From positions 219-32,772 of the forward strand of contig PFVX01000072.1 in the NCBI GenBank assembly GCA_002790835.1: DNA of 32,554 bases, read 5' to 3'. This document shows positions 2,553 to 20,006 of this stretch, in pieces; the first letter of the stretch is position 1; the number at the start of each line of letters is the position of its first letter. The notes beneath the pieces were generated by a model. It made no database searches. It was given only the letters and a program-made list of their open reading frames with translations, and was not told the origin of the DNA. A program made the position numbers and the translations under genes. This DNA is from a bacterium CG_4_9_14_3_um_filter_65_15 (GTDB lineage: Bacteria > Krumholzibacteriota > Krumholzibacteriia > LZORAL124-64-63).

Positions 2553-2936
2553 ATGACCCGCACCATCATCCACACCGACGGGGCTCCGGCGGCCATCGGA
2601 CCCTACAGCCAGGCCAACGCCGCCGGCGGTTTCCTGTTCACCGCCGGGCAGATCCCTCTGGATCCGGCCACCATGACCATCGTGGGAGAGACGGCGGCGG
2701 AGCAAACCCGCCAGGCGCTGACCAACGCCCAGGCCGTGGTCGAGGCCGGTGGTCTGACCCTGACCGATGTGGTCAAGGTGACCGTGTTCATCCGCGACAT
2801 GGCCCAATTCGGCAACATCAACGAGGTCTACCGGGAATTCTTCGCCGCCGAACCCCCCGCCCGCAGCGTGGTGGAGGTGTCCCGGCTGCCCAAGGATGTG
2901 CTGGTGGAAATCGAGATGATTGCTCACCGGGGGTGA
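2553..2936 (+). CDS. ridA: RidA family reactive intermediate (enamine/imine) deaminase
   Basis: This is a 127-aa protein of the YjgF/YER057c/UK114 family, which hydrolyses reactive 2-aminoacrylate and related enamines from PLP enzymes in the cytoplasm. Visible family motifs are GPYSQAN near residue 17, the segment LTDVVKVTVFIRDM, and the terminal block ARSVVEVSRLPKDVLVEIE with the substrate-binding arginine. The start ATG has AAGGAG (2539-2544) 8 nt upstream. It appears monocistronic, with its own promoter and a terminator directly after it. The last in-frame part of the gene (2892-2923) is duplicated exactly at 4354-4385. In that copy the same frame would run on to a different seven-residue tail (AYDSCGG), so the present C-terminus (AHRG) may be the product of a rearrangement. 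Confidence 0.93.
   Translation: MTRTIIHTDGAPAAIGPYSQANAAGGFLFTAGQIPLDPATMTIVGETAAEQTRQALTNAQAVVEAGGLTLTDVVKVTVFIRDMAQFGNINEVYREFFAAEPPARSVVEVSRLPKDVLVEIEMIAHRG
2892..2923 (+). repeat. 32-bp direct repeat, copy 1 (ridA 3' end)
   Basis: This is identical over 32 of 32 bases to 4354-4385, in the same orientation. It encodes KDVLVEIEMI and the first two bases of the next Ala codon of RidA. The pair flanks the minus-strand cytochrome gene. Confidence 0.95.
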
Positions 2937-3005: not shown

Positions 3006-4166
3006 TCACATGCCGATCAGGGCGACCCAGGTCAGGCGGCTCTCCTTGAACCTGGTGAATTCGGGATCACTGCTGTCGGGTACCGAAAGCTCACCCTCCC
3101 AGCCGAACTGGGTCATGGCGTTGGGGGCCAGTTGGATGTTGAAGAACACTCCCGCTTCGGTGAAACGGTCTTCCCCGTCATTCGCGGTATAGCTTCCGAT
3201 GTTGGCCGAGGGACCGTAGATGACGCCTCCGGATGAGGTGGCCCAAATGTTGCCCTCAAGCCCGACGAAGGTCTCCTGGGTGTCGGAGACGTCGTCCTTC
3301 TGAATGCCGAATAGGCCGTGGATGGCGGCGGGGCCCCGGAATGCCTGGAAGTCCGCTCCGAAGGTCGTCGTTTTGTCCTCTGACTTGCCGGTGGTCGAAT
3401 TGTAGGCCTTGGATACGGTTCCGAAGGCCCCGATGGAGAAGTCCTGGTTCACGTCGGCGACGATGCGTCCGGAGAAATCCTTGGGATCATGTCCTTCCAC
3501 ATCCCCGGCATTGCCGTGCCAGGCCCCGATGATCTGGACCTGATCGGTTGCCCGTGTGGACAGGCTGACGAACTGGGAGTTCCCGGGCATGAATTTTTTG
3601 GGGACCCAGGAGTTCCGGTTGGGATGGCGGTAGTTCACGGTGTTGTGGCCGTCCGCCCAGAACGGGGAACCGTATCCGGCGTGAACCGCGGTCGTGGGAG
3701 AAAGGGCGAATCCGACGGCGCCCATGGTGACTTCGGCGTTGAAATCGATCTCGTCCTCGGCTTCGATTTCCAGGAAGTAGGATATTTTGGGGGAGGCCAT
3801 TCCGGCGAAAAAGATTTCCACCTCGTGAAGCCCGCGGGTTTTCAGCTGCTTATCCTTGTCGGACAACTCGGCGGTGGTTTTGGCCTTAGACGTGCGCTTG
3901 TCGATCATGCGCAGGTTGATGATTGCGGAGCCGGGGAATGTGCCTTCCATGGGGGAGCCGTCGAGGTCCAGCTCCTGAACGAAACTGTAGCCCCCTTCCT
4001 TGTAGAGTCGGCCGGTCTCGTTAAGCTGGGGGAAAATCGTATGACACTCGTTGCAACTCATTTGTTCGGCCCGAGCGAATGTCGGGACGCCGGAGCTTAC
4101 GGCCGGCATCATTACGGCCACCGCGGCGGCAATAATCATGAGTGCAGTAAAGCGATTCCGTTTCAT
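3006..4166 (-). CDS. exported monoheme c-type cytochrome / outer-membrane beta-barrel-like protein
   Basis: The predicted product is 386 aa. An N-terminal signal peptide (about 1-31, hydrophobic core IIAAAVAVMMPAV, cleavage near TFA) is followed at once by a single heme-c motif, CNECH (Cys38, Cys41, His42), inside FARAEQMSCNECHTIFPQLNE. This layout is known in a family of porin-like proteins with a heme site at the mature N-terminus. The rest is rich in alternating polar and hydrophobic stretches with Gly and aromatic residues, as in a transmembrane beta-barrel; no second heme motif is present. The ATG at 4166 has AAGGAGG upstream (4180-4174) at good spacing, while the TTG at 4172 is too close. 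Three 60-nt lines of the gene count 52-55% GC against 67-72% in two glmS lines, which suggests acquisition. It stands alone and points against its neighbours. Electron transfer to an extracellular or periplasmic partner is a guess. Confidence 0.75.
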   Translation of the reverse strand: MKRNRFTALMIIAAAVAVMMPAVSSGVPTFARAEQMSCNECHTIFPQLNETGRLYKEGGYSFVQELDLDGSPMEGTFPGSAIINLRMIDKRTSKAKTTAELSDKDKQLKTRGLHEVEIFFAGMASPKISYFLEIEAEDEIDFNAEVTMGAVGFALSPTTAVHAGYGSPFWADGHNTVNYRHPNRNSWVPKKFMPGNSQFVSLSTRATDQVQIIGAWHGNAGDVEGHDPKDFSGRIVADVNQDFSIGAFGTVSKAYNSTTGKSEDKTTTFGADFQAFRGPAAIHGLFGIQKDDVSDTQETFVGLEGNIWATSSGGVIYGPSANIGSYTANDGEDRFTEAGVFFNIQLAPNAMTQFGWEGELSVPDSSDPEFTRFKESRLTWVALIGM

Positions 4167-4353: not shown

Positions 4354-4385
4354 AAGGATGTGCTGGTGGAAATCGAGATGATTGC
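4354..4385 (+). repeat. 32-bp direct repeat, copy 2 (upstream of tRNA-Sec)
   Basis: A perfect copy of the ridA 3' end (2892-2923). Here the ridA frame continues as AYDSCGG and a TAG stop at 4405-4407, 28 nt before tRNA-Sec. Sequence upstream of the copy shows no further ridA similarity that I can see. Confidence 0.95.
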
Positions 4386-4435: not shown

Positions 4436-4534
4436 GGGAATGAGTGTCGTCTGGTGACGGCCGGGGACTTCAAATCCTTTTGTCGGGCGCGTCATACCGT
4501 CCGAGGTGGGTTCGATTCCCACACATTCCCGCCA
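4436..4534 (+). tRNA. selC: tRNA-Sec (anticodon TCA)
   Basis: This 99-nt gene has the hallmarks of bacterial selenocysteine tRNA. It has an extended acceptor stem (GGGAATG pairs with CATTCCC; the eighth pair, 4443/4523, is A-A), a GT linker, a 6-bp D-stem with a 4-nt TGGT loop (4446-4461), and an anticodon loop CTTCAAA with TCA at 4470-4472. A long variable arm of 6-7 bp (about 4483-4504) is followed by a 5-bp T-stem (GTGGG/CCCAC, 4506-4522), discriminator G4531 and encoded CCA. The anticodon stem has two G-T pairs. It decodes UGA as selenocysteine together with SelA, SelB and SelD, none of which is in the window. It lies 31 nt before the lipid kinase gene and may be cotranscribed with it. 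Confidence 0.93.
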
Positions 4535-7997: not shown

Positions 7998-8840
7998 ATG
8001 AGCAAGCAGGGCAAGTCCAACAGCAGGAAGCAGGAGGCCGAGCCGCAGGGCGACGGCGGGAAGGTCGAAAGCGGCGCCACCGCCGGCGCCAAGGGCAAGG
8101 CCAAGCCGCCGAAGTCCAAGCAGAACGTCTTCGTGGAATACGCCAAGGCCATCGGCACGGCGCTGGTGATCGCCATGCTCCTGCGCCAGTTCATTTTCCA
8201 GGCCTTCCGCATTCCCACCGGTTCCATGCTGGAGACCCTGCAGATCGGGGATTTCCTGTTCGTCAACAAGTTCCTCTACGGAGCCAAGACTCCGGACCGG
8301 ATCCGCATCGGGAAGCTGACCCTCGTCGACGATCTGCCCGTGCTTCAGCTGCCGGCCATCCGACCGCCACGCCAGGGGGACATCATCGTTTTCGAGTACC
8401 CGCGGGACCGGAACCTCGATTACATCAAGCGTTGCGTTGCGGTGGCCGGTGACACCGTGGCCGTGAAGGACGGCGTCCTGTCGGTCAACGGCCAGATCTA
8501 CGAATCCAATTTCGGCGACCGCGACGGGGATCATTCCTGTGTGCCCGATTGGCAGGGCGGCGAGAATTGTCCGCCTCCCCGCACCAAGCACGACCAGTCG
8601 GCCTATCTGGGCAACTCGCGCAACCACGCGTGGCCCTGGGCGGGTATGCCGCAGACCTATGTGGTGCCCGAGGGGCACATCTTCATGATGGGGGACAACC
8701 GGTACAACAGCCTGGACAGCCGCTACTGGGGCGCGTTGGACGTGAACCTCATCAAGGGCAAGGCCATGTTCCTCTACTGGTCGTGGGACAAGGACCGGCA
8801 TCTGCCGCGGCTGAACCGGATCGGCGACATCATCCGGTGA
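7998..8840 (+). CDS. lepB: signal peptidase I
   Basis: This is the type I leader peptidase, which cleaves signal peptides from exported proteins at the outer face of the inner membrane. From ATG 7998 the protein is 280 aa. That start is chosen because AAGGGAG (7986-7992) is 5 nt away, while the GTG 7992 and ATG 7995 options overlap the site. The order is a Lys/Gly-rich cytoplasmic extension (1-40), one membrane segment (AIGTALVIAMLLRQFIF), PTGSM with catalytic Ser76, and DYIKRCVAVAGD with general-base Lys144. GDNRYNSLDSRYWG, the third conserved box, is near residue 230. A loop between the Lys box and the last box carries two cysteines (CVPDWQGGENC) that could form a disulfide. Its stop overlaps hemW by 4 nt. 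Confidence 0.96.
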   Translation: MSKQGKSNSRKQEAEPQGDGGKVESGATAGAKGKAKPPKSKQNVFVEYAKAIGTALVIAMLLRQFIFQAFRIPTGSMLETLQIGDFLFVNKFLYGAKTPDRIRIGKLTLVDDLPVLQLPAIRPPRQGDIIVFEYPRDRNLDYIKRCVAVAGDTVAVKDGVLSVNGQIYESNFGDRDGDHSCVPDWQGGENCPPPRTKHDQSAYLGNSRNHAWPWAGMPQTYVVPEGHIFMMGDNRYNSLDSRYWGALDVNLIKGKAMFLYWSWDKDRHLPRLNRIGDIIR

Positions 8841-9964
8841 GTGATGCACGGGGGCGCTACGGGCTGTACATCCACGTGCCGTTCTGCAGCTCCATCTGCT
8901 CCTACTGCCATTTTGCCCGCACCGACCGGCATGACTCCGGTCTGAGGCGCCGTTACGCGGAGGCTCTGGTGCGGGAGTATGAACTGCGATCGGAGGCGTG
9001 CCCTGCGCTGGGGTCGGGGCACAGGCGACTGGCCACCTGCTACCTGGGAGGCGGCACGCCGTCCCTGCTGGAGCCGGAAAACCTGCGCCGGGTGCTGGCC
9101 GGAACGCTGGGGCGAAGCGAAACCGTCGACGATCCGGAGGTCACCGCCGAGGCCAACCCCGAGTCCCTGACCGCTGAGCTGGCGACGGTCTGGCGTGAGG
9201 CGGGGATCAACCGGGTGTCGCTCGGCGTCCAGAGTCTCGACGACCATGTGCTGCGTCTGCTCGGCCGGGATTGCGATGCGGCCACCACCGCACGGGGGCT
9301 GGAACTGGCCTGCGCCCGTTTCGACCGCGTGGCGGCCGACTGGATCCTGGGCCCGGGGGTGGAGCTGGCTTCGCTGTGCGATCAGCTCGATCGGGCCGTG
9401 GATCTGGGTGTGGAACATTTTTCGCTCTACCTGCTGGAAGTGCACCGCGGAACCGCGCTCCAGCAGGACCTCGCCGCCGGAAAACTGGCCATGCCGAGGG
9501 ACGCGAAGTTCGAGCACCTGTACCTGGGGGCGGTCCGGCACCTGGCCAAGCGCGGGGTGCGCCAGTACGAAGTGGCGAATTTCGCCCGACCCGGGGCCGA
9601 GTCCCGCCACAACAGCGCCTACTGGCGGGGGGTGCCCTACCTGGGGTTGGGGCCCGGGGCCCACGGATTTTCCGGGCGCGGGCGCTACGCGAACCCCGGC
9701 GCCGTGGAAGCGTGGCTGGCTCCGCTGGAAGGCGGCCGCTTGCCCGATGGTCCCGTGGACCCGCTGGACCTGCAGGCCCGGCGCCTGGAACGGGTCATCC
9801 TGGGCTTGCGCACGACGCAGGGGGTGCCCCTGGCATGGTTGCCCGCGGGTTTCGACCCCGAACCGGAACGCGCGGACCGATTGTGGGATGTCCGGGAGGG
9901 CCGGCTGGTTCTGACCTCCCGCGGTTTCCTGCGGATCGACACCATCGAGGAATTCCTGGCCTGA
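8837..9964 (+). CDS. hemW: radical SAM heme chaperone HemW
   Basis: A 375-aa protein of the HemN/HemW radical SAM family; E. coli HemW is 378 aa. The iron-sulfur motif is C17-x3-C21-x2-C24 followed by HF, the HemW pattern rather than the CxC ending of true coproporphyrinogen dehydrogenase HemN. Further SAM motifs are GGGTPS and EANPE, with NRVSLGVQS after them. HemW binds heme and is thought to deliver it to respiratory enzymes. The start is GTG 8837, overlapping the lepB stop as GTGA. Longer open frames upstream run inside lepB and are not used. No strong ribosome site is visible, consistent with coupling to lepB. The lepA-hemW proximity is common in bacteria. Confidence 0.92.
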   Translation: MSDARGRYGLYIHVPFCSSICSYCHFARTDRHDSGLRRRYAEALVREYELRSEACPALGSGHRRLATCYLGGGTPSLLEPENLRRVLAGTLGRSETVDDPEVTAEANPESLTAELATVWREAGINRVSLGVQSLDDHVLRLLGRDCDAATTARGLELACARFDRVAADWILGPGVELASLCDQLDRAVDLGVEHFSLYLLEVHRGTALQQDLAAGKLAMPRDAKFEHLYLGAVRHLAKRGVRQYEVANFARPGAESRHNSAYWRGVPYLGLGPGAHGFSGRGRYANPGAVEAWLAPLEGGRLPDGPVDPLDLQARRLERVILGLRTTQGVPLAWLPAGFDPEPERADRLWDVREGRLVLTSRGFLRIDTIEEFLA

Positions 9965-18788: not shown

Positions 18789-20006
18789 TTGAAGTGGATT
18801 AAGTGCTTACTTCTGGTGGTCGTGATGATCACGACCTTTGCGGCCTATGCCGCTGCCGGCTGTGACGCCAATGCCGACCGTGGGGATTTCACCATCACGG
18901 CCCAGTCCCGGTATCGTTTGGAAATGGATGGACGGAGCTTCATTCCCGACGCCAACTCCGACTGGATGCAGTACATGCGCACCCGCGTCGGTATCAAGGC
19001 CCACGCCAGCGAGAATGCCGGCCTGTTCGTCCAGTTCCAGGATTCCCGTATCCTGGGCGACAATCCGGGCACCGAGTTCTTCAACAACAACACCATGGAA
19101 GAGACCGGCATCCACCAGGCCTACCTGTGGTACAAGCCCTGTGATATGGGCTGGGTCAAGGCCGGACGCATGTCCGTGTCCATGCACAACGAGCGCCTGG
19201 TCGGCAAGTACGACTGGGACAACACCGGCCGTACCGAGGAAGGCATCATGTTCGGCCACAAGCTGGGCGACAACGTCGGCTTCACGGCGGCTGTCTGGCA
19301 GTTGGAAGAGAACAACTTCGACGACGTAGAGACCGGCGACCGTCTGATGGACCCCATGTTCTACGTCTTCAACCTCAACTTCTCCGAGCAGCAGTTCGAC
19401 CTGTTCGCCTACCTGTGGAAGGACGAGTACTTGGCGAACGCCAAGCTGTGGACCTTCGGTGTCTACAGCCAGCGGACCTTCGCCGACACCTGGTTCTACG
19501 ACGCCATGTTCGCCCTGCAAACCGGCAGCGACGACGTCGTCGATTACAGCGGTATGCTGATCAACGCCGAAATCGGTGACGAGTTCGCCAACGGGTTCAA
19601 GGTGTCGGCCCTGGTCGACTACACCACCGGTGACGATCCCGAGACCGTTGACGAGGTCGAAACGTTCAACAACCTGCTGTACTCCGGGCACAAGTGGAAC
19701 GGCTACATGGACTACTTCGTCGGTGGCCTGAGCTACGGCCTGATGGACTTCGCCATCAAGTTGTACTACCCGCTGGAGAAGGGCTGGTCCCTTAGCGGCA
19801 CCGGTCACTCCTTCTCCACCGCCGAGGACTATGACACCGCTGACGGTACATCCTCCTCGATCGGCACGGAGTTCGACTTCGGCGTGCGCAAGACCGACGG
19901 TCCCTTCGCCGTGCAGGCCGGCCTGGGCATCTTCTCGCCCAACAGCGACTGGTCCGACGGTGACAGCGGTACCTGGGGCTATGTCCAGGGTACCGTGAAC
20001 TACTAG
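18789..20006 (+). CDS. porin-like outer-membrane beta-barrel protein
   Basis: A 405-aa exported protein. The start is TTG 18789, supported by AAAGGAG (18776-18782) at 6-nt spacing and by the signal peptide that follows directly (MKWIKCLLLVVVMITTFAAY; cleavage near AYAAAG). The mature protein has many short amphipathic strands rich in Tyr, Trp, Gly and Asp (for example LFVQFQDSRIL and AYLWYKP, later YMDYFVGGLSYGL). It ends in an aromatic residue (GTVNY), as expected for a barrel recognised by BamA. The overall look resembles alginate-export-type or FCB porins of 14-18 strands. The substrate is unknown. Codon use is strongly biased to C-ending codons (AAC, TAC, TTC, GAC), suggesting high expression. 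It is flanked by its own terminators. Confidence 0.82.
   Translation: MKWIKCLLLVVVMITTFAAYAAAGCDANADRGDFTITAQSRYRLEMDGRSFIPDANSDWMQYMRTRVGIKAHASENAGLFVQFQDSRILGDNPGTEFFNNNTMEETGIHQAYLWYKPCDMGWVKAGRMSVSMHNERLVGKYDWDNTGRTEEGIMFGHKLGDNVGFTAAVWQLEENNFDDVETGDRLMDPMFYVFNLNFSEQQFDLFAYLWKDEYLANAKLWTFGVYSQRTFADTWFYDAMFALQTGSDDVVDYSGMLINAEIGDEFANGFKVSALVDYTTGDDPETVDEVETFNNLLYSGHKWNGYMDYFVGGLSYGLMDFAIKLYYPLEKGWSLSGTGHSFSTAEDYDTADGTSSSIGTEFDFGVRKTDGPFAVQAGLGIFSPNSDWSDGDSGTWGYVQGTVNY

Follow-up and report, generated by a model that had tools for sequence, protein, structure and literature searches.

A putative divergent Cyc2-like cytochrome-porin in a Krumholzibacteriota genome

What is the role of an outer-membrane protein that appears to consist of a signal peptide, one heme-binding motif and a β-barrel? 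The question is raised by a gene on contig PFVX01000072.1 of the bacterium CG_4_9_14_3_um_filter_65_15 (phylum Krumholzibacteriota; genome G000, 3.39 Mb, 94 contigs, 95% complete), for which an earlier note had proposed an unusual one-protein electron conduit or a redox sensor. The whole stretch of DNA analyzed, 32,554 nucleotides, is referred to here as the window. Translation of 3006-4166 on the minus strand gives an uninterrupted protein of 386 residues, P0001, in which a signal-peptide-like stretch is followed by VPTFARAEQMSCNECHTIFPQLNETGRLYKEGGYSF and then by about 320 more residues. The probable signal peptide spans residues 1 to ~26 (4089-4166, minus strand) and, as read from the sequence, has a positive start, a hydrophobic core and small residues ahead of VPTFAR. 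Because homologues show an A|IPAFAR junction, cleavage probably falls just before VPTFAR, in which case CNECH (residues 38-42; 4041-4055, minus strand) would lie nearer 11-12 residues from the signal peptide than the 7 or so estimated earlier. CNECH, a heme c attachment motif, is the sole CxxCH of P0001, and its position close to the mature N-terminus is as originally described.

Could this motif be a chance or vestigial CxxCH in an ordinary porin? Nearby partner genes are missing and the GC content is somewhat low, as detailed below, which would suit such an origin. Against it, CxxCH and its flanking block are the best-conserved part of the protein and are invariant in homologues from several phyla. 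The heme block, PTFARAEQMSCNECHTIFPQL (residues 28-48; 4023-4085, minus strand), corresponds to the Cyc2 consensus region (PMC8406198), and P28, A31, R32, C38, C41, H42, T43, I44, F45, P46 and L48 are invariant across nine aligned homologues. The two cysteines and the histidine, whose loss among homologues would have spoken against the original reading, are thus kept, and we consider an ordinary porin very improbable. Judged from its sequence, P0001 probably carries a covalent heme on CNECH and probably resides in the outer membrane.

The rest of the chain had been described as outer-membrane strands. AlphaFold2 was unsuccessful with an alignment of two sequences (pLDDT 28.1). With nine sequences it predicts a 16-strand β-barrel at residues 79-385 (3012-3932, minus strand), yet with a mean pLDDT of just 58.9 and a pTM of 0.59; residues 1-77, heme segment included, have a pLDDT below 50. 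A Foldseek search with this model matches general 16-strand porins (best E 2e-10), and the VIA-align Z scores are 20.3 for VhChiP, 18.7 for OprP (2o4v) and 18.5 for OprO (4rjw). The 16 strands and the matches to OprP and OprO count in favor of a Cyc2-like reading, since the Cyc2 authors describe Cyc2 likewise and name OprP and OprO as its structural homologues (PMC8406198). Sequence searches of the PDB found no relative of P0001, of the pentaheme-linked family described below or of the PSFARQTG set of Cyc2-like proteins. The last residue of P0001 is Met and not aromatic; outer-membrane barrels usually end in an aromatic residue, and we therefore count this against the barrel and the Cyc2-like explanation. 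Structure prediction, which might have returned no barrel, has returned one, and homology together with this one modest model argues for a predicted barrel with modest confidence, short of proof.

To which class does P0001 belong? Cyc2 is a fused monoheme cytochrome-porin that oxidizes Fe2+, and its published criteria include an AXPXFAR[Q/K][T/Y] motif ahead of CxxCH, a PXL motif four residues beyond CxxCH, a minimum of 365 aa and a porin of 16 strands (PMC8406198). The same paper gives a potential of 208 mV for Cyc2 of Mariprofundus ferrooxydans PV-1. P0001 has the single CxxCH near its mature N-terminus, PXL in CNECHTIFPQL, and 386 aa when the signal peptide is included. Upstream of the heme motif it has GVPTFARAE, which agrees with the consensus at P, F, A and R and differs by G for A, A for Q/K and E for T/Y; elsewhere the heme block fits the published Cyc2 region in both spacing and content. 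Since the strict motif is absent, we name P0001 Cyc2-like, not Cyc2. In Pfam, all matches of P0001 are sub-threshold: DUF7744 at E 0.0032 (18 bits, where the cut-off is 27) and magnetochrome at E 0.15. NCBIfam gives no match.

Profile comparisons reach further. With hhalign, the three-member family of P0001 and its relatives matches 12 pentaheme-linked proteins at 99.2% (E 7e-20, 334 columns) and six PSFARQTG Cyc2-like proteins at 99.4% (E 3e-21, 321 columns). Matches of this length indicate that homology extends through the barrel, so that heme segment and barrel are homologous along the chain to the wider fused cytochrome-porin superfamily. A profile of the three relatives finds the heme segment of every one of the 48 other fused cytochrome-porins (i-E<1e-5), gives an extra match to the barrel only in 25 of the 48 at i-E<0.01 and in 7 at <1e-4, and matches none of 1000 shuffled sequences. 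Taken together, P0001 very probably belongs to the Cyc2-like fused cytochrome-porin class. Homology to Cyc2 and other fused cytochrome-porins gives good support to the proposal of a one-protein electron conduit, but the architecture is already in print (PMC8406198) and P0001 is therefore not unusual in kind. What is known is the architecture; what is uncharacterized is this distant Cyc2-related branch in a little-studied phylum.

The closest relative of P0001, from genome G038, is 44% identical and aligned along most of its length; the same protein is found on JAJRXK010000069.1, from the Krumholzibacteriota MAG Dive96_bin3.147. A relative from G120 is 31% identical, again over most of the length. 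At full length the P0001 type occurs in 2 of 80 Krumholzibacteriota genomes (its own and G038), with one further match to the N-terminus only, and it was not found in three other genomes of its genus (85-93% complete). One of 395 genomes in the phylum of G081 has it, whereas in the phylum of G080, with the cut-off unchanged, none of 395 does; in the phylum of G085, 14 of 398 genomes matched at 1e-15, covering at most profile positions 2-168. Viral contigs and plasmids gave no match to P0001. At E<=0.001, P0001 matched in 30 of 58 genomes, although, barring P0001 itself and the G038 protein, these matches ran via a second, pentaheme-linked type. When genome contigs were scanned, the single protein P0001 gave no match and the two-sequence alignment gave eight loci. 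A third match in the genome of P0001 (contig C94, locus L003, E 0.03) was dropped, as it lacks the heme block.

In a tree of 50 sequences, in which long branches meet and the root is arbitrary, P0001 and its two relatives form their own group with support of 100/96. For Cyc2 itself, three clusters with FeGenie HMMs and a tree of 1,593 sequences have been published. The other groups are the pentaheme-linked proteins (27 rows, 100/99), the PVFARKYGM proteins (11 rows) and the PS[FY]ARQTG proteins (9 rows), and the order among the groups is unsafe because of the long branches. Excluded from the tree were L003; L050, L078 and L085, in which CxxCH is present but the strict cutting pattern was missed; L007, L014, L043, L054 and L088, which are truncated or short; L041, which shares a contig with L004; and five duplicates.

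The surroundings of the gene bear on its partners and its origin. On one flank lie genes that we take, from their protein sequences, to be glmS and ridA; on the other lie a selenocysteine tRNA (4436-4534; ARAGORN; Rfam RF01852, 69.6 bits) and what is presumably a diacylglycerol-kinase-like gene, dagK. This tRNA makes it probable that the bacterium produces selenoproteins. Genes were called, here and at the relatives' loci, by a simple codon-composition script and not a trained gene finder; in the window, one other called gene has a CxxCH, that of a radical-SAM protein at 8549-9964 which we take to be HemW-like. The calls for the window include no second cytochrome gene, and hence no separate multiheme cytochrome stands beside the porin as in MtrAB-type systems; an electron-transfer partner gene is adjacent neither at this locus nor beside the closest relative in G038. 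The gene is thus alone at its locus, as the earlier note held.

Solitude of this kind is what a redox-gated porin or redox sensor might show, a pore closed by the heme segment and opened or shut according to the redox state of that segment. The segment is indeed short and N-terminal, as a plug would be. On the other hand, no signaling partner lies beside the gene, and the closest characterized relatives are described as electron conduits (PMC8406198). No evidence for the sensor suggested earlier was found and, as there is no partner at all, we rate gating or sensing as improbable.

A further claim, that the GC content is lower than that of the neighbors, is borne out: it is 0.593, against 0.655 for glmS, 0.661 for ridA, 0.674 for dagK and 0.652 for the window. 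Windows of equal length with a GC content as low number 24 of 628, and GC3 of the gene is about 0.78. Three other genes of the fused cytochrome-porin class also fall below their own loci in GC content, which makes this weak evidence. An exact direct repeat of 32 bp, the only one of at least 24 bp found in the window, has its left copy in the 3′ end of ridA (2892-2923, plus strand) and its right copy between the cytochrome-porin gene and tRNA-Sec (4354-4385, plus strand). Repeat, GC content and GC3 suggest that the gene arrived in a segment of some 1.4 kb, duplicating the end of ridA. Separately, the lowest-GC part of the window holds another outer-membrane barrel gene (18789-20006; Alginate_exp PF13372, E 8e-10), which has no heme motif.

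The absence of multiheme partners, true of this locus, does not extend to the whole genome. A second fused cytochrome-porin of 400 aa, with AIPAFARRYKLSCTTCH, is encoded on contig C12 (L039:4801-5997), directly after a 447-aa protein that has five CxxCH and gives Cytochrome_C554 and NapC/NirT-type matches. Among the loci L001-L032, 31 of 32 have the heme block (L003 lacks it), and 29 of these 31 are of the second type. In the sample of 29 Krumholzibacteriota loci of this type (L002 and L005-L032; on C12 the two genes lie at L039:4801-7358), a same-strand multiheme frame lies directly upstream in all 29, its stop codon beginning 2-125 bases before the assumed porin start in every case. Five CxxCH are present in 28 of these frames, and three in one that is cut by the contig end. 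Pentaheme cytochrome and fused cytochrome-porin possibly form a porin-cytochrome complex of new make-up. A literature search short of full text found no description of a multiheme gene paired with a fused cytochrome-porin, which is weak evidence that the pairing is not in print. This two-gene module is possibly more widespread than the P0001 gene. Some 2.6 kb away from this pentaheme gene, C12 also carries a gene for a tetraheme class III cytochrome c (L039:9997-10404; four CxxCH; PF02085, E 3e-12).

L057, the third relative and a distant one, likewise departs from the claim of missing multiheme partners: its locus has a multiheme cytochrome followed by an MtrB/PioB barrel (PF11854, E 9e-144), and L057 itself is the second gene downstream of this barrel. 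G120 has a same-strand series (L058:3980-9205) of multiheme cytochrome, MtrB/PioB barrel, response-regulator-like gene and fused cytochrome-porin, in this order. Systems of MtrB/PioB and multiheme cytochromes can work in either direction. The neighborhood of L057 supports the passage of electrons across the outer membrane, not its direction, and it lends something to the idea that P0001, as a member of the same class, is put to another use, namely electron export to extracellular acceptors or metal detoxification. So do the distant Cyc2-like relatives L044, L046 and L048 from other taxa, which adjoin genes that, read by eye, resemble MacAB/HlyD/TolC or RND efflux genes. These efflux neighbors, however, belong to another subfamily, and no such neighbor is found at the P0001 locus; moreover, the characterized Cyc2 proteins are described as oxidizing iron (PMC8406198). 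We regard such another use as possible, if on the unlikely side.

The explanation we favor, by a narrow preference over all others combined, is that P0001 is a divergent Cyc2-like cytochrome-porin whose heme-loaded barrel would pass electrons from a reduced metal, most likely Fe2+, towards an oxidase. P0001 would be exported, and system II (ResB-CcsA) would attach one heme c to CNECH. In the outer membrane the protein would then form a barrel of 16 strands, with the small heme segment at the periplasmic opening of this barrel or within it. The donor, a reduced metal ion in solution and most likely Fe2+, would enter the pore and pass one electron to the heme; soluble c-type cytochromes of the periplasm would take the electron from there to a terminal oxidase. 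Both the direction of electron flow and the substrate are proposed by analogy, and for metal oxidation as the function of P0001 we see even chances.

The genome offers the likely components. ResB and Cytochrom_C_asm domains share one frame of 1230 aa, which identifies system II cytochrome c maturation in the form of a ResB-CcsA fusion; the maturation genes that the earlier note had suggested looking for are thus present. Cytochrom_C matches over the cut-off number 14, of which 8 are on contig C77, and heme-copper oxidase genes are represented by four COX1-family matches. The genome thus encodes the maturation machinery, electron carriers and oxidases that a chain of the Cyc2 type would use. 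In Candidatus Manganitrophaceae, Cyc2 has been proposed to act in Mn2+ oxidation (PMC9040806), and the Cyc2 authors call the function of divergent Cyc2 homologues uncertain (PMC8406198). A survey of the Southwest Indian Ridge reports Cyc2 homologues in 39 MAGs from 17 phyla, including Krumholzibacteriota, whose MAGs came from sample Dive96 and are described as putative heterotrophs (PMC9769843); this putative heterotrophy counts against the harvesting of electrons from Fe2+. In favor of the Cyc2-like explanation are the Cyc2 homologues reported from this phylum and the origin of the closest relative of P0001, whose MAG, Dive96_bin3.147, belongs to the Dive96 series.

Strands 2 and 3 of the predicted barrel (3750-3824, minus strand) carry E115, E117, E133, E135, E137 and E139, all six invariant in the three close relatives. 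Spaced by two within each strand, the six glutamates should share one face, and their charge and the alternation of residues suggest that this face is the pore. The run [DE]x[DE]x[DE]x[DE] is present at strands 2-3 in 3/3 close relatives and absent from the barrel part of all 20 PS[FY]ARQTG and PVFARKYGM proteins from other taxa; it occurs in 10 of 27 pentaheme-linked sequences, at different places. At the places aligned with the six glutamates, the PSFARQTG rows have mostly Q, S, T and D, and the pentaheme-linked rows printed have mostly G/A, K, Y, F/Y, S/D and K/R. The acidic residues could bind cations on their way to the heme. It is conceivable, though rather unlikely, that the three-member clade is functionally distinct, with a glutamate metal path beside the heme, a selectivity other than that of Cyc2, be it for Mn2+ or a different cation, and a mobile cassette as its vehicle, here between the 32-bp repeats by tRNA-Sec.

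Fused cytochrome-porins serve as marker genes of microbial iron oxidation, and their divergent branches therefore decide how far that inference reaches. P0001 is such a case, since part of the diagnostic motif is missing, homology is clear, and the gene shares its genome with a second type, whose partner is a multiheme cytochrome. The two types, together in one genome of a putatively heterotrophic phylum, are of use for the question whether fused cytochrome-porins have roles other than iron oxidation. As Cyc2 homologues have already been reported in Krumholzibacteriota (PMC9769843), P0001 is a divergent variant of a known architecture, not a new class.

Among known systems, the phosphate porins OprP and OprO share the 16-strand fold of the P0001 model, at an identity of about 8%. 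To our knowledge, they carry no heme. The second porin on C12 and its Krumholzibacteriota relatives have the same heme block as P0001, a similar length and a profile-profile match of 99.2%; they differ in having an AIPAFAR-type motif and a multiheme gene directly upstream, and BLASTP aligns the C12 porin well with P0001 over the first 63 residues only (29%). In MtrAB, MtoAB and PioAB electrons likewise cross an outer-membrane barrel, but by means of a separate decaheme protein and a 26-strand barrel (PMC8406198), whereas P0001 would use one polypeptide and one heme. Closest is Cyc2 of Acidithiobacillus ferrooxidans and Mariprofundus ferrooxydans PV-1, which, by the published criteria, shares with P0001 the signal peptide, the N-terminal CxxCH with PxFAR before and PxL after it, the predicted 16-strand barrel and a length above 365 residues (PMC8406198). 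Unlike Cyc2, P0001 is without the leading A and the Q/K-T/Y of the motif, has acidic strands 2-3 and falls in a separate clade.
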